A stretch of DNA of 44,922 nt, from the NCBI GenBank assembly GCA_002786855.1, contig PCUU01000089.1:1-44922 (forward strand), written 5' to 3'. A model generated the notes under the pieces. The model did not search any database. It had not been told where the DNA came from and worked only from the letters and a program-made list of their open reading frames with translations. The position numbers were made by a program, and so were the translations under genes. How positions within the stretch are numbered: position 1 is the first letter of the stretch; every line of letters begins with the position of its first letter. Source of the DNA: Cytophagales bacterium CG12_big_fil_rev_8_21_14_0_65_40_12 (GTDB lineage Bacteria > Bacteroidota > Bacteroidia > Cytophagales > Cyclobacteriaceae). Positions 1 to 11,564 of the stretch are shown here, one piece after another.

Positions 1-3000
1 ATACTCGGCACTGGTATTGCCATATTTAACCCCTTCATTGAAGGTGATCCAAAATCGATTATCGTTTGGTGACACACTATTGACAGCACTGAGCAGAACA
101 TCTGTGGCACCATTGCTTGGCGTTAAACTTGAAATGCCAAGACCTGATGGCGCTTCTGTTGTGAAACTCCAAGTAGTCTTATCATTGATGCCGGCAAAGG
201 CAACTCCTTCTGTACTTTTAAAGGCGGTGTTGGGGATATTTACATAATATTTTGTGTCAAATTCGAAATTGGTATCTCCCAACCCGATGCTAGCCTTATC
301 GCCATCCACAGAGACCAAAGATAAATTAGCAGCTATGGCGAGTAAAACTTCGTCATCTGAAGCTCTTCTTATTTCAATGTCTCCGGTGCCCTTGGCAATG
401 GCTTGGTCGAAGGTGATATTTAAGGTAGCGTCTATTGCTACTCCTTCTTCATCCTTCTCAGGCGACAGTGCTGTAACAACCGGACCCTGCTCTGTCACAG
501 TAAGTGTAGCCAAATCAGAAGTTTCCCTACAATTTCCCTTGCTCACGACCACAAAGAATTCCGACTGATCTAAATCTAGCGTAAGATTATTGATAGTAAG
601 CTCATGGGTATTGGCCCCAGTAATTTGATTGCTCGCAGTATTGTCAGCATTATCTGTTTGTTTGGTACTAACGGATAATATGGTAAAGCCTATAGCAGTT
701 CCTACATAAACCTTCCCTTCTGTTGCATAAACAGAATATACCCTGTTAATATCTGGAAATCCATTTTGACCACGCGTAGTAGTTGTCCAACTAGCTCCCC
801 CATCTGTTGAAATCGACAATCCACCGTTAGTTCCTGCATAAACTGTATTACCTACCGTATGAACAGAGTTAACTGAATTAGAGCTTGCAAAGCCATTTTG
901 ACCATTGGTAGTGGTTACCCAGTTGGCTCCTCCATCCGTAGAAATAGATAAGCCACCATCATTAGTTCCTGCATATAGGTTATTTCCATCAACATGAATA
1001 GACAAAATCTTATCAGTATTTGCAAAGCCATTTTGGCCGCTTGTCGTAGTGGACCAACTAGCGCCCCCATCAGTAGAAATCGACAATCCACCGATAGTTC
1101 CTGCATAAACCGTATTACCTACAGCATACACAGAATTAACTATATCAGAACTTGCAAAGCCATTTTGACCATTGATTGTGGTTACCCAATTGGTTCCTCC
1201 ATCCTCAGAAATAGATAAACCGCCACCATTAGTTCCTGCATAAACAGTATTACCAACGGCATATATATGCCTGACACCATTTGCAAGTGCGAAACCGTTT
1301 TGACCATTGGTAGTATTTGTCCAGTTAGTCCCCCCATCTGTTGAGATAAACACTCCCGACCCTGTTCCAACATAGATATTATTACCTACAGCATACACGG
1401 AAAGAACAGAAATTGAGTTTGCCGATCCGTTTTGATTTATGATTACCGTTGTCCAATTAGCCCCTGCATTTTTAGAGATAGAGAGGCCTGTATTGTTACC
1501 CACGTAGATCGACTCTCCTTCAACAAAAACAGAATTAGCAATTATTATTGCGAACGGCTGCCCTAAGTTATTAGAGCTAAAACTGTCCTCTCCTTTTTTA
1601 AACCATCCATAAGTAGCACCAGCCACTTCTGGAACTGAAAAAGTAACGCTCCGGCCAATATAGCCCGTCTCATCTGTAGGTTGTTCTAAAACCAAAGGCT
1701 CGCAAATGGTGGAGAACGTATATTTTTCTTTATCAGTAACCGCTAAGTTTCCTAAGCTGATATTGTCAAGTACAGCATCCGCATCTACTGTAATATAATA
1801 TTTAGTACCATAACCAAGGTTAGTAGTAGGTAAAGTAACCACCCTGCCAACTATAGTGACATCGTCAGGAGAAAAGGCTTGCTTTTCTACATCGGTGGTG
1901 TAGTCTATGATCCGAATGCTTCCCGTCCCTTTTGTAATATCTCTATTGAAAGTAATGGCTATTGGTACATCAATGGATACATCTGTAGATGCTGTTATTG
2001 GCGAAACGCTTTCAATACCGGGAGCCTCAACAATGGTTAATACTCCAACATTTGAACTTTCCGTACAAATGCCTTTATCCACAACTACATAGTACTTTAT
2101 ACCATTTACATCCTGGTTTAAGTTATTAAAAGTAAGCTCATTGGTGGTTGCGCCAGTAATTTGATTTACAGCGGTGTTATCAGAATTATCATTGAGTTGA
2201 CTTACGTCTGAAATGGATAATCCGCTTTGGGTACCATAGTAAATAAGACCATCAAATTCATAGACTGCTTGGGCAGTTGCAGAAGGCAAACCATCTTCAG
2301 CACCATAATTTGTAAAAGTAAGACCCTCATTACTTGTTGCCGAAATACCATGATCTGTACCTAAATAAATCACTCCATCTGACTCAAAAACTCTTTTAAC
2401 ATTATTGTTAATCAGCCCATCAGTTGTAGTCAGTATTCTAAAAGTATCACCATTGTCATCTGATATTGCTAAGCCTTTGCTGGTGCCTACATAGATTACA
2501 TTATCCCGCATCAATACCTCATATGAAGTTGACGTTCCGTCACCAATTGTCTTAGTTACAAAACTTTGTCCTCCGTCAGTTGAAATCGAAAGCCCATCAC
2601 GCTTGGTTAATACATATAAAGCTTCATCTGTCACAAAAACACTAGCAACATTATTACTTGGCAGTCCACTATTATCTTTTGTTCTCAGTTCAAAGCTATC
2701 TCCTTTATCTACAGATATATGTAAACCAAGACCAGTTAGAATGTATACTATGCCATTTTTTATAAAAAGACCTTGAACACTCAAGCCTGTACCAGTCTCT
2801 GGATAAGGTCCTTTTGCTGTAAAAGTATCCCCGCCATCCATAGACACCGAGAGTCCTGACGTTGTTCCCACATATAGTACCCCCTCAGATTCCTTTACGG
2901 ATTTTGTAGCGTTGGAAGACAGACCACTATTATCATTGGTTTTATTTTCAAAAGAAAGTCCACCATCACTCGAAATCGACAAGCCTGCTTGAGTAGCGAC

Positions 3001-6000
3001 ATAGAGTACTCCGTTGGATTCAAAAATGTCAAAAACAGAATTATCCCCTAATCCATGTTCAGTTGTCTTGGTTGTAAAAAGCGTTTCCAAATACCTATGC
3101 CATTGGTAAGTTGCACCTTCTACTAAGGGTACTGAAAAACTTGCACTCCCATTAATACCAGCCGTTTGATCGACAGGTTGATCGAGAATAAGGTCTTCAC
3201 ATACGGAAGAAAATTCAAACAAACCAGCACCTAAAAGCTCCGCGTTTCCGTTTCCTTCTACATTCTCTACAACACCTGGTTCGAGTTCAACATAGTACTT
3301 TATGGATTTTTCCAAATTAGGGCTCAAGGTGATGGAGTTACCGGAAACCACTACTTCATCATCCGCTACGTCAAAGGCCTGTAGCACATTGTTATTAAAG
3401 GCATTTTTTAAATAAATGGAACCTTCACCCTTCACTATTTGAGCATTGAAAACAATCTCTAATTCACTATCTAGTGCAATGTCAGTGCTTCCATTGGCGG
3501 GAGACACACTTGTAATCCTTGGTATATCTGCCACGCGAAGCAACACAGCATTTGAGGTTTTAAAACAACCATCTTTAGCTACCTCAACAAAATACTGGGT
3601 CTGGTCTTGCTCTAAACTTAAATTGCTGATAGTTAATTGATGTGTTGTTGTACTCGAAAAATCTAGCAATTTTATATCTGTCATGAACTGAATATCCTCA
3701 TTAGATCCAGTATAAATACGGTCTTCAAAGCCTCCAACTGATTTTAGGTCATTACCAAATCGCTCATCTTTAATAAATCCAGCATTGATATCGCTTAAGT
3801 TCATGGTATACAAACCATCTTCGAAAGCAACATAGCAGTTATTGTTACTTATATAAATATCAACAGGGGTATCTATAAATTTTCCGCTCTGTGGTATGGT
3901 AAACTGTTGATATTGATCTGCATCTAAAAAATCTGTCGTAATAAAAAATGTTCCAGCCACTGAATAGCCAACTACGTAAGTGCCATTATATTTCAGCACT
4001 CTAGGTTGCATAATTTCACCATCCTTTATGTCGATCGGTAAATTACTTTTTTCTTCTACGTTGTTGTTAGCTGGGATATATTCATCAATTATACCATCAT
4101 CTGTGACATAGATTTTATCATCAATTTTTATGGAGATATAACTTTTATTGTTTATTGAGATATACTCAAAATCAGTCTCGTTCTTGTATTTTATTGATAT
4201 ATCCGTAAATTGGCCGCCAAAACCGGGGCGCTTTCCGTGAATAACAATGATGTCCCCCTCACTGTTAGTATATACACTTCGTGTAAACAAAGAAGCTAAT
4301 CCATTTAGTTCTTTAAGCTGGGTGAAATTTATTGGGTTCAACTCAGAAACGAAGATACCGCTTGACTCAGTGGCTAAGTAAACCAAGTTATCGATGAATA
4401 AAATATCTTGAACATTTGGTATATCATAGAAAGAAAAATTTCCCCCTTGGTCTAGCGACAAAGAAATACCCTCAAAAGTCACATAGATCAATACATTACC
4501 ATGAGTAAAAATCCTTTTTACTTGCTCAAAACTATCGTCTCTTTCAACAAAATCTCCCCTTTGATACCACTGATAGCTTGCCCCCGGAACTTGATCTACC
4601 TCGAAAGTTACACTACCCAATTCTAAACCTGACTGCGCTATGGGCTGAGTTGGAATCAAATTGGTAAAGCTTAATGCAAACTCATCAGTTTTTTGAAAGA
4701 GGGGGGTACCATAAGTTACACTGTAGTTGGTAGTTCCCTCGTCTATGGTAATATTTCCTGTAGCATCTGTATCAAATTCTGTTCCCTCTTTTTTCCATGA
4801 GAAGGTACTATTGTTCAATGCATTATAGCCCGATATTTCAGCTTCGGCATTTGACACCAAAATCGAACGGCTTGTTGCAATGCCATCGTTGAGATTATCT
4901 GTTAAATCAAAAAGTCGGTGGTCTGCGATGTTTTTCATCGCGCCATAGAAGGCAATGAGGTTAGAAGCATTATGCACAGGTGCAGCCGACATTAAACTAG
5001 TCACCTCCTCTTCTAAGAGTAGTTTGTTCCAAACTGTAATTTCCGCGAGTTTCCCATCCAAAAAGTCTGATGGGCCATTATCATCCAATTCCATGCCCAG
5101 ATAGGCAGTATTGCCCAAGGTTATTGGCATTGCTTCCGTGAAGGTATTGATCACCGTTCCGTTCAGGTAGACTTTGGTCTCGAACGTAGTAGCATTATAG
5201 GTGTAGCCCACAAAGTTCCACATATCATTGGCCAAAGTACTTCCCGCATCCCTTACATTTGCACCATCAAATATGGCCAGTTTTTCATTGTCCCGAATGT
5301 AGAAATTGGTAACAGACTCTGTTCCATTATCCGCATGTATAGAGAACAGGTTATAATTATCTCCGCTTGGCACATTAGACTCCTTGTTGACCCACATAAA
5401 TACGGACCTATCGGTGCCCACCAGGTCGTTCGTTAATTCAGAAACATCAATGTAATCGTCCTGATCCTTTTCAAAATCAAGGTAATTGACGGCACTGGTA
5501 GAAACGGTTTTAGTAATGGCATCATCAGAACAGACAGTCTCATCGTCCACGTTATTGACCGTTGTGCTGTTGTTATTGGCTGTTAGAGTCCATGTATTTA
5601 TACTTTGAATAAAGTTTCTAGTGGTTACAAACTCATAATTGCCAGTTGCAACATTGAAAGTATAAGTTGGGTCAATTGAAACTTCAATACCGTCTTTCTT
5701 CCAAGAGATATTTTCGTACCAATCTATGGCATTGAAGCCGGGAATGGACTGTACATTTTTGAAGTCAACGGAAAAATTATTCTCCATTACGCCATCATTG
5801 TCCTTGCCCGAATGGTCTTTCAATACATCAGTCGCATCATCGCAATCTCCAAAAATGGAATAGTAGCCTACCAGATTGGCATATTTAGGGTGGCTATCGT
5901 TGATTTTAGACTGCATGGCTTCTCTGATTTCAGCACCAGTTAACACCTCATTCCAAACAGAAATCTCAGCCATATCTCCGTTGAAGTGGTCGGTATCATT

Positions 6001-7485
6001 GGCATTGTCGAATTCTTGACCCAAAGAATATTGTGAATTGGAGGCTGTCAACTGATTGTCGGTAAATCTGTCGTTCTCAATTCCATCAACATAAATCACA
6101 GTTTCATGAGTAGTGGCATTATAGGTATATCCAACGTAATGCCATAGCTGATCACTCATATCAAAAGAGGCCGACTGATTATCTTGACTATCAAAAATCT
6201 CCAAATTATCACCAACATTATCTATCCAGAAAATAGTAACATTACCTCCGGAGCTAGTATTGATGGCAAAAAGCACCTGTTTATCTGTTGCCACATTGGC
6301 CTCAGACTTTACCCACATAAAAACCGACCGATTTGTGCCATTTAACTCGTCTTGCAAGGCATTGAGATTTACCCAGTAGTCCTGAGACTTGTCGAAGGTT
6401 AACACACCTGTGGCGTTTGTATTAGCTTGATAGGTTACTGAGCCAGATTCAGCCATTGTAGCATTAACATATACATCCGAGACAATATCGGTACGGTCGA
6501 AAGTGACATTGTAGTAAGTTTTAACTGTTCCCTCTGTGACCTCATAAGTTCCATTGCTTGAAACCAAAGCCCCCCCCGGTACCTGATAAGTGTCGGAATC
6601 ACAAATTGAGACATTCTGGATTTCGCAGGTAAAACCAGAAGCACAAGAGACCGTCCCTAAAACAGGGAAAATGGACTCGCCAAAAGACGTTCCATCATTT
6701 GGCGTCACTTTAACCTTAAGTAAGCTGCCAAGATCATTTATTGTAGGTGTGTAACTAGCATTTGTTGCTCCTGCTATGGCTACCCCCCCTAAGTACCATT
6801 GAAAAGTGGTACCAGACTCAACATCGCCCTCAGGATCTGAATAGTCATAAGCGACAGTAATTTCTTTACCTACCTCAGCGCCACCCGTAGCCATTGGATC
6901 AAAAGTAATAGCTGGCGCTTGATTGAAGATACCCTCCATTTGTACCTCAGCTATCTGCACACTGTTTGCTGCACTCGCATCACACGGATTATGTAGTCTG
7001 ATCCAATAACTGTTAAAGGCTAAGTCATTTCCATTGCTAATGTTTTTGCTGTTATCGGCACCCCTATTCTTACCTAGGGTAGTACAGCTAAAACTGACTT
7101 CATCTATTAATGTCCAAGATGGGTTTGTATCTGTAGTTGTTGCACCCTCTGAAACAAGTCGGCCATAGATTTGAACTAATTTCGGATCTCTCTCTGGGTG
7201 ATCATTAGCCGTTGTGATTGTAAGCGATTTGACAATTGAAATTGCCCCTGTATTTACATAAAAATTTAACCCCCATGACTTTTCGAAAGTCAGGAATTTG
7301 TTCAACTTATTTCCGTCAATTACATTATTTATCCCTTCACCCAAAGCAGATTCAGAAGGCCCGAAAGTGATGGGAGTCATTGAAGAATTAAAGACTGGTT
7401 CTAAGATTTGTCCATAAACCTTAGCGCCAGCCATTAGCCAAAAGGCGATAAGAAAAAGGAATTTAAGCGAATGGAAAGGCTTCAT
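1..7485 (-). CDS. Giant secreted modular protein (LamG, Ig, nested beta-propellers), C-terminus beyond window
   Basis: The frame is open from an ATG at 7485 to the left edge: 2495 codons, no stop. A signal peptide covers about residues 1-25. In order I read a discoidin/F5-8C-like domain (about 30-195), an Ig/cadherin-like domain (195-280), two LamG-like concanavalin folds (about 355-540 and 660-850), then three large units. Each unit has the first half of an Ig-like domain ending in YQW or YGW, a beta-propeller of about 300 residues, the second half of the Ig domain, and an SbsA-type Ig_5 domain (SPxxGSTDI...ITFN). Propellers 2 and 3 carry Asp-box motifs such as STDGGASW and about seven blades each; propeller 1 is more divergent. 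The make-up suggests a cell-surface or released adhesin or glycan-binding protein. A type IX sorting tail would lie outside the window, so the export route is not shown. No catalytic domain was recognised. Confidence 0.9.
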   Translation of the reverse strand, partial: MKPFHSLKFLFLIAFWLMAGAKVYGQILEPVFNSSMTPITFGPSESALGEGINNVIDGNKLNKFLTFEKSWGLNFYVNTGAISIVKSLTITTANDHPERDPKLVQIYGRLVSEGATTTDTNPSWTLIDEVSFSCTTLGKNRGADNSKNISNGNDLAFNSYWIRLHNPCDASAANSVQIAEVQMEGIFNQAPAITFDPMATGGAEVGKEITVAYDYSDPEGDVESGTTFQWYLGGVAIAGATNASYTPTINDLGSLLKVKVTPNDGTSFGESIFPVLGTVSCASGFTCEIQNVSICDSDTYQVPGGALVSSNGTYEVTEGTVKTYYNVTFDRTDIVSDVYVNATMAESGSVTYQANTNATGVLTFDKSQDYWVNLNALQDELNGTNRSVFMWVKSEANVATDKQVLFAINTSSGGNVTIFWIDNVGDNLEIFDSQDNQSASFDMSDQLWHYVGYTYNATTHETVIYVDGIENDRFTDNQLTASNSQYSLGQEFDNANDTDHFNGDMAEISVWNEVLTGAEIREAMQSKINDSHPKYANLVGYYSIFGDCDDATDVLKDHSGKDNDGVMENNFSVDFKNVQSIPGFNAIDWYENISWKKDGIEVSIDPTYTFNVATGNYEFVTTRNFIQSINTWTLTANNNSTTVNNVDDETVCSDDAITKTVSTSAVNYLDFEKDQDDYIDVSELTNDLVGTDRSVFMWVNKESNVPSGDNYNLFSIHADNGTESVTNFYIRDNEKLAIFDGANVRDAGSTLANDMWNFVGYTYNATTFETKVYLNGTVINTFTEAMPITLGNTAYLGMELDDNGPSDFLDGKLAEITVWNKLLLEEEVTSLMSAAPVHNASNLIAFYGAMKNIADHRLFDLTDNLNDGIATSRSILVSNAEAEISGYNALNNSTFSWKKEGTEFDTDATGNITIDEGTTNYSVTYGTPLFQKTDEFALSFTNLIPTQPIAQSGLELGSVTFEVDQVPGASYQWYQRGDFVERDDSFEQVKRIFTHGNVLIYVTFEGISLSLDQGGNFSFYDIPNVQDILFIDNLVYLATESSGIFVSELNPINFTQLKELNGLASLFTRSVYTNSEGDIIVIHGKRPGFGGQFTDISIKYKNETDFEYISINNKSYISIKIDDKIYVTDDGIIDEYIPANNNVEEKSNLPIDIKDGEIMQPRVLKYNGTYVVGYSVAGTFFITTDFLDADQYQQFTIPQSGKFIDTPVDIYISNNNCYVAFEDGLYTMNLSDINAGFIKDERFGNDLKSVGGFEDRIYTGSNEDIQFMTDIKLLDFSSTTTHQLTISNLSLEQDQTQYFVEVAKDGCFKTSNAVLLRVADIPRITSVSPANGSTDIALDSELEIVFNAQIVKGEGSIYLKNAFNNNVLQAFDVADDEVVVSGNSITLSPNLEKSIKYYVELEPGVVENVEGNGNAELLGAGLFEFSSVCEDLILDQPVDQTAGINGSASFSVPLVEGATYQWHRYLETLFTTKTTEHGLGDNSVFDIFESNGVLYVATQAGLSISSDGGLSFENKTNDNSGLSSNATKSVKESEGVLYVGTTSGLSVSMDGGDTFTAKGPYPETGTGLSVQGLFIKNGIVYILTGLGLHISVDKGDSFELRTKDNSGLPSNNVASVFVTDEALYVLTKRDGLSISTDGGQSFVTKTIGDGTSTSYEVLMRDNVIYVGTSKGLAISDDNGDTFRILTTTDGLINNNVKRVFESDGVIYLGTDHGISATSNEGLTFTNYGAEDGLPSATAQAVYEFDGLIYYGTQSGLSISDVSQLNDNSDNTAVNQITGATTNELTFNNLNQDVNGIKYYVVVDKGICTESSNVGVLTIVEAPGIESVSPITASTDVSIDVPIAITFNRDITKGTGSIRIIDYTTDVEKQAFSPDDVTIVGRVVTLPTTNLGYGTKYYITVDADAVLDNISLGNLAVTDKEKYTFSTICEPLVLEQPTDETGYIGRSVTFSVPEVAGATYGWFKKGEDSFSSNNLGQPFAIIIANSVFVEGESIYVGNNTGLSISKNAGANWTTVIINQNGSANSISVLSVYAVGNNIYVGTGSGVFISTDGGTNWTNTTNGQNGFALANGVRHIYAVGNTVYAGTNGGGLSISEDGGTNWVTTINGQNGFASSDIVNSVYAVGNTVYAGTIGGLSISTDGGASWSTTTSGQNGFANTDKILSIHVDGNNLYAGTNDGGLSISTDGGANWVTTTNGQNGFASSNSVNSVHTVGNTVYAGTNGGLSISTDGGASWTTTTRGQNGFPDINRVYSVYATEGKVYVGTAIGFTILSVSTKQTDNADNTASNQITGANTHELTINNLTLDLDQSEFFVVVSKGNCRETSDLATLTVTEQGPVVTALSPEKDEEGVAIDATLNITFDQAIAKGTGDIEIRRASDDEVLLAIAANLSLVSVDGDKASIGLGDTNFEFDTKYYVNIPNTAFKSTEGVAFAGINDKTTWSFTTEAPSGLGISSLTPSNGATDVLLSAVNSVSPNDNRFWITFNEGVKYGNTSAEY
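690..1590 (-). repeat. Tandem blade repeats of 132-135 bp inside the giant gene
   Basis: The third propeller is encoded by six strongly similar units plus one degenerate unit. The TTCCTGCATA-type landmark recurs at 831, 966, 1098, 1233, 1365 (as TTCCAACATA) and about 1497, so the unit alternates between 135 and 132 bp (44-45 residues). Units at 831 and 1098 resemble each other more than their neighbours, as do those at 966 and 1233. This gives a 267-bp higher-order period and points to duplication of a two-blade block. Confidence 0.85.
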
Positions 7486-7893: not shown

Positions 7894-8274
7894 TTACACA
7901 GGGTTTACGAGTCGCAAGTCCAGTTCAGTAACTCTGGAAAAACCACTATCTGCGGTGACAAGAGGACAATTAAGATAAAGAGCAGTGGCTGCCACGATGC
8001 TATCCGGAAGTTTCAGACTATAGGCTCTTCTTAGTCTAATGGTTTCACGCTTTATTATATCATTGAGTTCTATCAGATTCATGTCCCTGATAAAGGAATG
8101 TATGACAAACTCCTCTTTTTTGTCAATTTTAGGAAAACTCAGTAACTCAAGTTCGGAGATCACCGACAGATAAGCATATTTGGAGTGAATAAGACTTGCC
8201 AACTCACGGTTGCCATTAAGCACGTAGATAATCACATTGGTATCTACAAGCATCCGGTCTTCGTAATTCACCAT
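7894..8274 (-). CDS. PIN-domain toxin (VapC-like ribonuclease)
   Basis: The 126-residue product matches the usual size of PIN toxins. It has the acidic residues expected of the Mg-dependent nuclease site: D11 in LVDTNV, E41 or E43 in SELELLSF, D91 in LPDSIVAATA and D109 in TADSGF. Known PIN toxins of this kind cut tRNA or rRNA; the target here is unknown. The ATG at 8274 overlaps the end of the antitoxin gene by 7 bp, which indicates translational coupling. An internal ATG at 8253 would remove the overlap and begin nearer the conserved strand. The partner is an XRE regulator rather than the AbrB, RHH or Phd type usually seen with VapC. Confidence 0.88.
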   Translation of the reverse strand: MVNYEDRMLVDTNVIIYVLNGNRELASLIHSKYAYLSVISELELLSFPKIDKKEEFVIHSFIRDMNLIELNDIIKRETIRLRRAYSLKLPDSIVAATALYLNCPLVTADSGFSRVTELDLRLVNPV

Positions 8275-8706: not shown

Positions 8707-8727
8707 AGTGATTAAACAGTAATCACT
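8707..8727. promoter_or_regulatory. Operator candidate 2 of the XRE/PIN pair
   Basis: AGTGATT at 8707-8713 and AATCACT at 8721-8727 form a perfect 7-bp inverted repeat with a 7-bp spacer. It has the same half-site and orientation as candidate 1 and overlaps the stop codon of the LytTR regulator gene at 8726. It could also act as a weak hairpin at the end of that transcript. Confidence 0.5.
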
Positions 8728-9454
8728 ACTCCACCCGAATCTTCTTCAAAAGATCATCGCGGTAGTTTTTACCGATTGGGATTTGCTCTCCGTTCATTAG
8801 CACATAGGCTGAGTTGATGGCATCCATATGGTCCACATTAATGGTGAAGCTACGGTGGGTACGATAGAAGTTCTTTGGGAGTCTTTCTGAAAGATCGGTT
8901 AAACTACCACGGATAAGGTGTTTTTGGTTATTGACCGTATAAAGTTCTATGTATACGTGATCGCTTTTTAGGTAGCGAATATCATTAAGTTTGATTTTAT
9001 GAAAGAGGTTTTTCTCCTTTATAAAAATGGCGTCTTTGATCAGTAAGTCTTCTTCTTGAGTTTTGACATTCCCCCTGCTTTCGGCATAGCTGTGTAAGGC
9101 TAACTCTATTGACGTATAGAGATCATCTTTATTAAATGGTTTGACCAAATACGCGGGAGGCGATACCTTTTTGACCCGTTCTATAGTACCCGCATCGGCA
9201 TTGGAAGTAAGGAAAATAAAAGGGAAATCGTATTGCTCTTTGATTGTCCAAGCTAGGTCTACTCCATCCTTTTTTCCACCCAATTGAATATCGAGAATAG
9301 CGATATCAGGCCTCTCGGCTTCAATCGTTTCAAGGGCTTCTTCATAGTTGATGGCAGGCTCCAAAACTTCATAGCCTAAGTCTTCTAGGATCAAGCAGAT
9401 ATTCTCTGCAATCACCATTTCGTCTTCAACTACCAGTATTTTTACTTTGCTCAT
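8726..9454 (-). CDS. LytTR-family response regulator
   Basis: The 242-residue product has a receiver domain (about 1-120) with acidic residues E10, D11 and E12, phosphoacceptor D55, T83 and K105, then a LytTR DNA-binding domain (about 140-242). I chose the ATG at 9454 because MSKVKILVVEDE begins the receiver there; an earlier ATG at 9538 would lie inside the kinase gene and add 28 unrelated residues. The start is one base beyond the kinase stop codon, so the two are surely co-transcribed. LytTR regulators bind paired direct repeats about 21 bp apart, which is what is seen upstream of the giant secreted-protein gene at 7555-7768. Confidence 0.93.
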   Translation of the reverse strand: MSKVKILVVEDEMVIAENICLILEDLGYEVLEPAINYEEALETIEAERPDIAILDIQLGGKKDGVDLAWTIKEQYDFPFIFLTSNADAGTIERVKKVSPPAYLVKPFNKDDLYTSIELALHSYAESRGNVKTQEEDLLIKDAIFIKEKNLFHKIKLNDIRYLKSDHVYIELYTVNNQKHLIRGSLTDLSERLPKNFYRTHRSFTINVDHMDAINSAYVLMNGEQIPIGKNYRDDLLKKIRVE

Positions 9455-9455
9455 T

Positions 9456-11564
9456 TTAGATTGCCTTGCGCTGTAAGGTGTCGGTGAAGTTAACAACAAA
9501 TTTTGCTCCTCCAATGTTTGAATACTCAACACTGCCATAGAGTTGTTTAGCCAATCTTCTGACTAACCTTAAACCTAGACTTTTGGCTTTTTGAAAATCA
9601 AATGAGTCTGGCAATCCACCTCCATTATCTTCTACTGTCAATTGATGCTTTCCTTCACCCAATGAATTAATGGAAACAGAAAGGGTACCTTGTTCGCCAT
9701 TGTTAAAGGCATATTTATAGGCATTAGAGATCAGTTCGTTCAAAATCAAGCCCAAAGGAATTGCAGTATCGATATCGAATTCAGACGTTGATCCGCCATT
9801 TACCACGGTATTCACATCTGCTTTTTTATTATAAATGGTGCCCAACTCTCCTACTAACATATTGGCATATTCTTCAAAATTAATGGTTGCCAAGTTTTCG
9901 TTTTGATAGAGCTTTTGATGAATTAAGGCCATAGCTTTTACCCTATTCTGGCCTTCCATAAATGTCGCTTGGGTTTTTTCATCGTCAATTTCTCGTGATT
10001 GCAAATCCAAAAGGCTTGAAACTACCTGAAGATTGTTTTTTACCCTGTGGTGAATTTCTTTGAGTAGCAACTCCTTTTCTGACAAGGATTTTTCAATAAT
10101 CCCGTTCGCCTTTCTCAATTTTTGGCGACCTCTTTGAATCAAAATGGCTATGGCAATAATCAAGAGCAGCACAATGAGGATTCCAATCAGTAAATATCTT
10201 TGTTGTTTTAATTGTGCCCGTTGTGCTCGCTGACTTTCTTGCAACAAAGCGTTCTCTCCTTCTATTCTTTCTGTTTCAAACTCAGTGGTCATTTTGGCGA
10301 TGGCATCCGTTCTGGTCTGATCATTGATTTCTTCAGATATGCCTTTAGAAATTTGGCTGAATTCATAGGCCTTTTGATATTGATTCAGCTTAGAGTAAAT
10401 CAAGGCCAATATTTCTGCTAGTTTTAGCTTTACATTGCCAGATTCCGCAATATTGGCAAGCTCCCAGCCCTCTAGAGCATAAGGCAATGCGGCTTGTAAT
10501 AGGTTTTTACTTTCCTGAGTAAAATCAGAGTAAACCGAGTCCACCAAAAATAATTTTGCTTCAGCAAGGCTTCCATAAACATCTGCTTTGGATTTTGGAG
10601 CATAATTTGATGGGATTGACTTTACAGCTTCCACCATATACTCATGGTTTTTGCGATAATCACCTCTCTGTTTTTCTATCCAAGCCACATTGTTATAATA
10701 ACTCACTGAGCTCCTTCCTAGCTCCTTGTCTATTTCCCACGCATTAGTCAACGACTCAAATGCTTCATCCAAACTGTCCTGCAATATCAAAATCTGCCCA
10801 ATATTGGTGTAGGCCAAGGATACTCGCCCTTTTTCACCTGCCAGTCTTGCTATCTCTCTTGACTGTCTTATGTAAGCTTTGCCCTTTTCGTACTGCTTTT
10901 GTTCTTTCAAAATCAGGCCATAAACCATGTACGGATAATGGATTCTAGCAGTGTCACCTGTGGCCTTTCTGAACCTGATTGCTTCCAATATTCTTTCAGA
11001 GGCTATGTCCAGCTTTCTGAGATAATAGCTACAAAGTCCAGAGTAATTGTAGCTCATCGCAAGGCGATATGAGGTCCCATCTGCTATATTTCTTGTTATA
11101 ATTGAGTCATAATGTAGAATGGCAGTATCAAAATTAGACATGCCTTGGTAAGTCGAAGCCAAATCAAATTGGGTATAAGAGAGTTCCTTTTTGAGGCCCT
11201 CTCTTTTTTGGATTGTCATCGCTTCATTCAGCAATTCAATCCCCTTCTCTTTTTGCCTAATATTGACATAAGCTACCCCTAGGGCACTAAGGCTTTCAGC
11301 CTCATACTTTGGAGCATCAACGGATAAGGATAGAGCTGTTTCTAAGGCTCTATTCATATAAAAGAGGGCTGAATCGAAATTAACTCTTGTCAACTCTTCA
11401 CCTACTAATAGGTCAATAGTGAGCTTTACGGTATCATGTGCAGCCGATGCTCTAATTTGTAGAAGCGAGTCTATTTTGGTTTGAGCAATCAGATTCTGTT
11501 CGTCACAAACCGAAATAAAAAATATCAGAATAGATAAAACAGTTAGTGCTCTGAATTTCAGCAT
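9456..11564 (-). CDS. TPR-containing sensor histidine kinase (HisKA_2 type)
   Basis: The 702-residue protein has a signal peptide (about 1-28), a TPR-repeat sensor region (about 60-430), a short coiled coil, one membrane helix (about 443-465), a HisKA_2 dimerisation domain and a HATPase_c domain (about 590-697). The H-box reads LLKEIHHRVKNNLQ with histidines 505 and 506; the ATP-binding N-box ILNELISNAYKYAF and the G-box DNGGGLP are intact. The TPR region would lie in the periplasm, a layout common in Bacteroidota kinases paired with LytTR regulators. It partners the gene that starts one base after its stop. The signal sensed is not apparent. Confidence 0.92.
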   Translation of the reverse strand: MLKFRALTVLSILIFFISVCDEQNLIAQTKIDSLLQIRASAAHDTVKLTIDLLVGEELTRVNFDSALFYMNRALETALSLSVDAPKYEAESLSALGVAYVNIRQKEKGIELLNEAMTIQKREGLKKELSYTQFDLASTYQGMSNFDTAILHYDSIITRNIADGTSYRLAMSYNYSGLCSYYLRKLDIASERILEAIRFRKATGDTARIHYPYMVYGLILKEQKQYEKGKAYIRQSREIARLAGEKGRVSLAYTNIGQILILQDSLDEAFESLTNAWEIDKELGRSSVSYYNNVAWIEKQRGDYRKNHEYMVEAVKSIPSNYAPKSKADVYGSLAEAKLFLVDSVYSDFTQESKNLLQAALPYALEGWELANIAESGNVKLKLAEILALIYSKLNQYQKAYEFSQISKGISEEINDQTRTDAIAKMTTEFETERIEGENALLQESQRAQRAQLKQQRYLLIGILIVLLLIIAIAILIQRGRQKLRKANGIIEKSLSEKELLLKEIHHRVKNNLQVVSSLLDLQSREIDDEKTQATFMEGQNRVKAMALIHQKLYQNENLATINFEEYANMLVGELGTIYNKKADVNTVVNGGSTSEFDIDTAIPLGLILNELISNAYKYAFNNGEQGTLSVSINSLGEGKHQLTVEDNGGGLPDSFDFQKAKSLGLRLVRRLAKQLYGSVEYSNIGGAKFVVNFTDTLQRKAI

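Follow-up and report, generated by a model that had tools for sequence, protein, structure and literature searches.

Propellers nested in split immunoglobulin-like domains of a giant, probably exported protein of a Cytophagales bacterium

The window analyzed here is the whole of contig PCUU01000089.1 (44922 nt, C51 in a genome of 99 contigs) from Cytophagales bacterium CG12_big_fil_rev_8_21_14_0_65_40_12, a marine organism, and its first 7485 nucleotides hold the 5' part of a giant gene, an open frame of 2495 codons on the minus strand (1..7485 in the open reading frame listing) that runs off the contig end and would encode an exported protein. Pfam matches and motif reading place two LamG domains in this protein, followed within residues 939–2443 by three tandem units (A, B and C), each with an insert of about 300 residues interrupting an immunoglobulin-like (Ig) domain. 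The nested architecture is real, being well supported for unit C and supported by sequence for all three units. Taken as a whole, we consider it likely that the protein is a giant adhesin with propellers side-mounted in split-Ig sockets of its stalk.

Nested units in the giant frame

Each unit reads in the same order: a first Ig half with YQW or YGW at its end, the insert, the second Ig half and then Big_5 (PF13205, found in three stretches of the protein with an E-value of 9.1e-30), all on the minus strand. In unit A the first half (4561..4668, placed by motif and alignment) ends with ASYQW at nt 4581–4567, the diverged insert of about 290 residues occupies 3691..4560, and the second half (3526..3690) carries its opening motif DFSSTTTHQLTI from nt 3663 and a later strand, YFVEV, from nt 3594, followed by Big_5 at 3202..3522. 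Unit B comprises a first half at 3094..3207 (motif and alignment; ATYQW at nt 3114–3100), an insert at 2203..3093, a second half at 2026..2202 (QITGATTNEL from nt 2163, YYVVV from nt 2094) and Big_5 at 1705..2022, and unit C a first half at 1597..1710 (motif and model; ATYGW at nt 1617–1603), an insert at 667..1596, a second half at 487..666 (QITGANTHEL from nt 627, FFVVV from nt 558) and Big_5 at 157..489. The Big_5 domains of A and B were placed by motif with their ends set by eye, and that of C from the best Pfam stretch (residues 2333–2443) and the structure model. By alignment the three inserts measure 298, 299 and 312 residues (288, 300 and 314 by a cruder cut), and successive units start at intervals of 488 and 499 residues.

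A first-pass annotation, made from the sequence alone, had anticipated much of this layout. Its three inserts of about 300 residues inside Ig-like halves are confirmed by the motifs, the alignment and the joined-half Ig matches given below, its tandem repeat of roughly 490 residues agrees with the spacing of the units, and the SbsA-type Ig domain that it placed after each nested unit is recovered as the Big_5 stretches. Some details require adjustment: the first-half endings ATYQW and ATYGW are right for B and C but A reads ASYQW, the positions assigned to a YYVVV strand (3640, 2190 and 650) hold instead as second-half starts, and the ITGA wording of the second half applies to B and C but not to A.

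The AlphaFold2 model of unit C, with a predicted local distance difference test score (pLDDT) of 89.8, contains a complete seven-bladed propeller at model residues 44–348 between Ig half-domains that are themselves confident (pLDDT 80–96 in blocks of 10 residues), so the structure prediction that the first-pass annotation had called for agrees with nesting in this unit. Second-half strands are modeled at 383–391, 394–397 and 401–406, and block 41–50, at the junction of Ig domain and propeller, scores 53. A closed seven-bladed ring with Asp-box repeats is predicted for unit C only; its blades are near-repeats at the DNA level as well, with one 267-nt pair being 81% identical. The VIA-align rows for this model cover mostly model residues 34–349 and are all propellers, which makes them uninformative on the Ig domain. 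The unit B insert is assigned as an Asp-box propeller with five boxes found by regular expression, and that of unit A (20% identity to the nearest insert) is taken as a propeller through its alignment to the other units, the model of the LamG region together with unit A (1146 residues) being poor at a pLDDT of 56.7. Among related proteins, the inserts in slots 2 and 3 of locus L039 and slot 3 of L042 are of a related repeat type with 0 or 1 Asp-box by regular expression, and occupy the same Ig sockets.

When the insert is cut out and the flanks are fused, the joined halves behave as an Ig domain. At E ≤ 0.1 and over 20 units from the window and its relatives, Ig_7 (PF19081, CHU_C-associated Ig-like) matches 16/20 joined units (best 9.3e-8) and Ig_3 likewise 16/20 (best 2.3e-6), compared to 12/20 (best 4.9e-5) and 2/20 (best 0.011) in the control with the order of the halves swapped. 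Given these swapped counts of 12 and 2, Ig_7 is weak evidence by itself, and Ig_3 is the more telling of the two families. For units A, B and C the joined halves give Ig_7 scores of 24.8, 16.2 and 16.6 bits (E-values of 2.7e-5, 0.013 and 0.010), against a curated cut-off of 27.3. In the uncut protein, with inserts in place, the Pfam search listed no Ig_7 at E ≤ 1; profile searches can miss a nested Ig domain since it is cut in two. An alignment of 18 units places all 12 of its invariant columns in the Ig halves and none in the insert.

At the superfamily level the fold appears to be Ig-like, as the two halves, in their natural order, line up with a single uninterrupted Ig domain: positions 6–92 of the 94 in the joined-half profile match residues 209–287 of PDB chain 9c2d, where few residues separate YQWKK from ISGAT. 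In the true order this profile matches 9c2d (2e-14), 9ncf (1.2e-13) and titin (3.8e-6), and its best whole-chain PDB match is the Aureispira grappling hook protein A (E-value of 1.2e-33), reached through many weak domains, the stronger of which are contiguous Igs without insert and each weak alone (best 21.4 bits). The alignment in order carries the caveat that the swapped profile likewise matches the tandem-Ig chains (9c2d 3.7e-14, 9ncf 2e-17, grappling hook protein 1.9e-14), its stretch in 9c2d (160–240) straddling the border of two Ig domains as tandem arrays permit, whereas titin has no match to it at E ≤ 1. The swapped-order PDB comparison was thus set aside as a test of half order, since it does not discriminate for tandem-Ig chains. 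What the PDB match establishes is therefore Ig-type sequence; for the order in which the halves stand, the Pfam counts and the empty copies described below are the better evidence. Neither of the outcomes that the first-pass annotation named as contrary to nesting was seen: the joined halves retain Ig character by Pfam, the 9c2d alignment and the empty copies, and the flanks do not appear as separate complete domains, with the unit C model giving confident half-domains.

Sockets and inserts among relatives

Naturally empty copies of the Ig domain occur in R. spongicola (L051) and in a Bacteroidia metagenome-assembled genome (MAG; L050), each being third in its array. The gap between the matched halves is 13 or 18 residues in R. 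spongicola, depending on the profile, and 12 in the MAG, whose copy scores 39.0 and 39.2 bits to half-domain profiles from whose training it had been left out (the R. spongicola copy was included). These copies show that the Ig domain stands alone without the insert, and they are silent on gain versus loss. An origin of the propeller in an Asp-box hairpin belonging to the Ig domain itself finds no support in the two empty sockets, where no Asp-box was seen by eye.

The same unit is found in other Cytophagales, as the first-pass annotation had proposed to check. Paired halves around an insert are present in at least 8 of the 19 genomes of the genus, the source genome included, and in one MAG, the carriers named in their records being Roseivirga thermotolerans, R. 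spongicola, R. ehrenbergii, R. seohaensis, UBA6061, an uncultured Roseivirga and MAG 5_bin.51. The collection was searched with the Ig second half as query, because the whole-unit alignment lacked a conserved stretch, and this returned eight loci, seven of them with nested units; the eighth (L054) was judged by eye to be an ordinary Ig. The number of nested units per protein is 3, 2, 2, 3, 2, 2 and 1 for L039–L045, 2 for L050 and 3 for the window, a total of 20, and Big_5 is not a fixed part of the unit, with slot 3 directly after slot 2 in L042.

Across the order, the unit profile at 1e-12 matches 216/390 genomes, among the matches listed mostly with the propeller alone; outside the genus, among these same matches, both halves are spanned only in G403 and G377, where the profile covers 33–394 (L084) and 11–396 (L085) of 402 positions and reading by eye agrees. 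The joined halves of L084, and each half alone, gave no Ig match in Pfam. Two further genomes, G281 and G838, show a propeller within an Ig domain by motif script and by eye, and match each other at 47% over positions 2–376 of 384. The four genomes come from a single further family of this order, and we regard what they show as other cases of a propeller in an Ig domain, partly judged by eye. The motif script covered 35/44 order- and phylum-level loci (the 9/44 without a box cluster were excluded), flagging 3/26 order-level loci outside the genus (L066–L068), 0/18 at the phylum level (L089–L106), and 4/7 and 3/4 in two further locus sets, mostly repeats of the same places. One flagged locus, L117, was discarded as a nested case, there being no Ig second half downstream by eye. 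In the phylum search none of the matches listed outside the genus spans both halves. Overall the architecture looks rare but recurrent. Locus L110 (G811) presents the ordinary in-line alternative, by eye a propeller between two complete Igs.

The Ig frames and the inserts have different histories. Over 190 pairs of units the Ig halves average an identity of 0.51 and the inserts 0.25, with the Ig value higher in 186/190, and each half co-varies more strongly with its partner than with the insert. The frame tree separates slot 1 from slots 2 and 3 in one change (support 97/94), whereas the insert tree contains six slot changes, compared to a shuffled mean of 6.9, with 168–179 of 500 shuffles equally low. 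An insert tree with slot 1 held together is rejected (p-AU of 0.0009, approximately unbiased test), and the slot-3 propeller of the window is closest to the slot-1 propeller of another genome, at 57%. The Ig frames follow their slot and the propellers do not, as if the latter had been exchanged, replaced or homogenized in fixed sockets; the mixing of slots could arise from exchange between slots, repeated insertion or blade homogenization. Insert length is 298–327 residues in 18/18 units measured, approximately one full ring.

Proposed arrangement and competing explanations

The window gene probably continues on contig C77 of the same genome (G000:C77), which opens with a frame of 2137 codons (L046) aligning with the same relatives in their later part, at 67% over 1241 residues of L043; frames of 4490–5117 codons are present in five relatives. 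The C77 frame ends in a type IX secretion system (T9SS) type B sorting domain (TIGR04131, E-value of 2.1e-16, 59.8 bits against a cut-off of 35), and the next gene encodes a PorP/SprF protein with an OmpA-like end (TIGR03519, 107.4 bits against 90.55). SprA is matched over positions 4–2318 of 2319. Homology and gene neighborhood suggest that the protein is probably an exported, anchored giant adhesin, and the reading we favor, modeled on SprB and SprF, is T9SS export with anchoring via the PorP-like partner. SprB is, in the available part of PMC9143113, a giant repetitive Flavobacterium gliding adhesin with a T9SS type B C-terminal domain and a PorP-like neighbor. Unlike SprF, the PorP-like protein here extends into its OmpA-like end.

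We propose a stalk built of successive Ig-like domains, three of which would have a seven-bladed propeller in place of the loop after the YQW strand, which we take to be strand C in Ig naming. The chain would exit the Ig domain, build the propeller and return to complete the Ig; since the two ends of a closed propeller adjoin, it would fit in the loop without breaking the stalk. The propeller would then form a binding head at the side of the stalk, and a force pulling on the stalk would run through the Ig domain and bypass the propeller. With the Ig socket conserved, propellers could be replaced, exchanged or re-amplified over time, changing what the cell sticks to. Ligand binding, the load path and adhesion are what we infer from this arrangement, and enzyme activity of the propellers seems less likely.

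Split Ig-like domains are known from the repeats-in-toxin (RTX) adhesins AhLap of Aeromonas hydrophila, FrhA and MpIBP, where, in the available parts of two reports (PMC12077191, PMC10865825), they project ligand-binding domains, with the insert turned outward so that its two termini lie on one side and its binding site on the other. By analogy the propellers may also face outward and, in addition, be shielded from pull. The window protein resembles these giant fibrillar adhesins, as described there, in its size and in having a complete domain inserted into an Ig-like domain of the stalk, but RTX adhesins are type I secreted whereas it probably has a T9SS-type end, and their cargo is CBM/PA14, peptide-binding, beta-roll or vWFA domains rather than propellers (PMC12077191, PMC10865825). 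One to three tandem sockets per protein are a further difference. It would therefore work like an RTX split domain but is not filed as one, because the probable continuation of the gene encodes a T9SS type B sorting domain. What is new relative to RTX split domains is the propeller cargo, the T9SS setting and the tandem sockets; the first-pass annotation's "unusual display scaffold" is somewhat too strong, as display by split Ig domains was already published for RTX adhesins in what is available of PMC12077191 and PMC10865825. The word "propeller" occurs 0 times in the main text of PMC12077191, and among the papers listed by our literature search none reported a propeller inserted in an Ig domain. 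The inserts share fold and repeat motif with the Asp-box propellers of the Vps10 family, sialidases and GH74; the Asp-box architectures in the available part of PMC2716378 include a domain inserted in a propeller and none with a propeller in an Ig domain.

Several observations weigh against the side-mounted adhesin. Strands of the two halves would have to pair across the insert into one sandwich, a pairing that we infer; the joined window units all fall under the Ig_7 cut-off, Ig_7 persists in 12/20 swapped units, and the swapped profile matches tandem-Ig chains, scoring better than the true order for 9ncf. The unit A insert has one Asp-box by regular expression and a low-confidence model, the insert tree has very long branches, and blade homogenization could mimic exchange. 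As for the remainder of the gene, the C51–C77 join rests on homology, the GldJ match is under its cut-off, and shorter relatives have 2179 (G009, UBA6061) and 1941 (G007) codons, with L044 and L045 carrying the same nested units and ending, by eye, like a type A T9SS sorting domain. Protein length and anchor are thus not constant among relatives.

Some of these points would suit a reading of the flanks as linkers or as a pair of small independent beta domains, with the propellers in line as in ordinary exoproteins, and so would the uncut protein without an Ig match and the in-line propeller of L110. This is very unlikely in our estimation, given that the joined halves match Ig families (Ig_3 falling to 2/20 when swapped), that empty Ig copies were found, that the halves co-vary mutually more than with the insert, and that half-domain model confidence is 80–96 per block. 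That the propellers are BNR or glycoside-hydrolase type enzymes held at the surface for polysaccharide breakdown is suggested by the protein's match to the NCBIfam F510_1955 glycosylhydrolase (E-value of 9.2e-36) and by profile matches to GH74-type xyloglucanases, and also to two-component sensors; the F510_1955 match is under its cut-off, however (123.4 of 175 bits), a FRIP-like motif (FRIP is the sialidase motif) is present in 0/20 inserts, and no insert column is invariant over 18 units, although a single enzyme family should retain some, making this improbable. Ligand-free spacers, arising as near-neutral loop expansions through blade amplification, would account for the DNA-level repeats of the unit C blades, the free divergence of the inserts and the occurrence of empty sockets, but an insert length held near one full ring in every unit measured and the recurrence in four genomes of another family leave us with little expectation that this is correct.

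Going beyond the side-mounted adhesin, one may tentatively regard the Ig domain as a general plug-in socket of Bacteroidota T9SS adhesins, with propellers exchanged between, or independently placed in, fixed split-Ig sockets. The heads would form a fast-changing set kept out of the force line, the parallel with RTX adhesins would be independent of the secretion system, and the LamG pair would perhaps be nested at another loop, giving five nested heads in the part seen. Taken jointly this is possible, though we lean against it. Split domains have been proposed as a means to recognize ligand-binding domains in giant adhesins (available part of PMC12077191), and applied to Bacteroidota, with propellers as cargo and the empty sockets serving as natural controls, this approach would yield a list of candidate binding heads of T9SS adhesins and offer a natural system for testing side-mounting as protection against mechanical load.

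LamG domains and neighboring genes

The two LamG/concanavalin-like domains (4813–6405, minus strand) may be nested likewise between PKD/Ig-like pieces. At 5710..6405 lies domain 1 in its slot, flanked by PKD/Ig-like pieces (Laminin_G_3 best stretch, residues 372–520), and at 4813..5490 domain 2 in its own slot (second Laminin_G_3 stretch, placed by alignment). When joined, the flanks of domain 1 match PKD_3 (E-value of 0.0077) and I-set (0.012) and those of domain 2 match PKD_5 (0.022), each under its cut-off. The LamG inserts differ from the propellers in being strongly conserved among relatives.

Upstream of the giant gene on the same strand, 8726–11564 holds two overlapping frames resembling response regulators and histidine kinases, with matches under the cut-offs. 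Just upstream of the giant gene, 7894–8274 (minus strand) has a weak match to a VapC/PIN-like toxin (E-value of 1.2e-4, under the cut-off).

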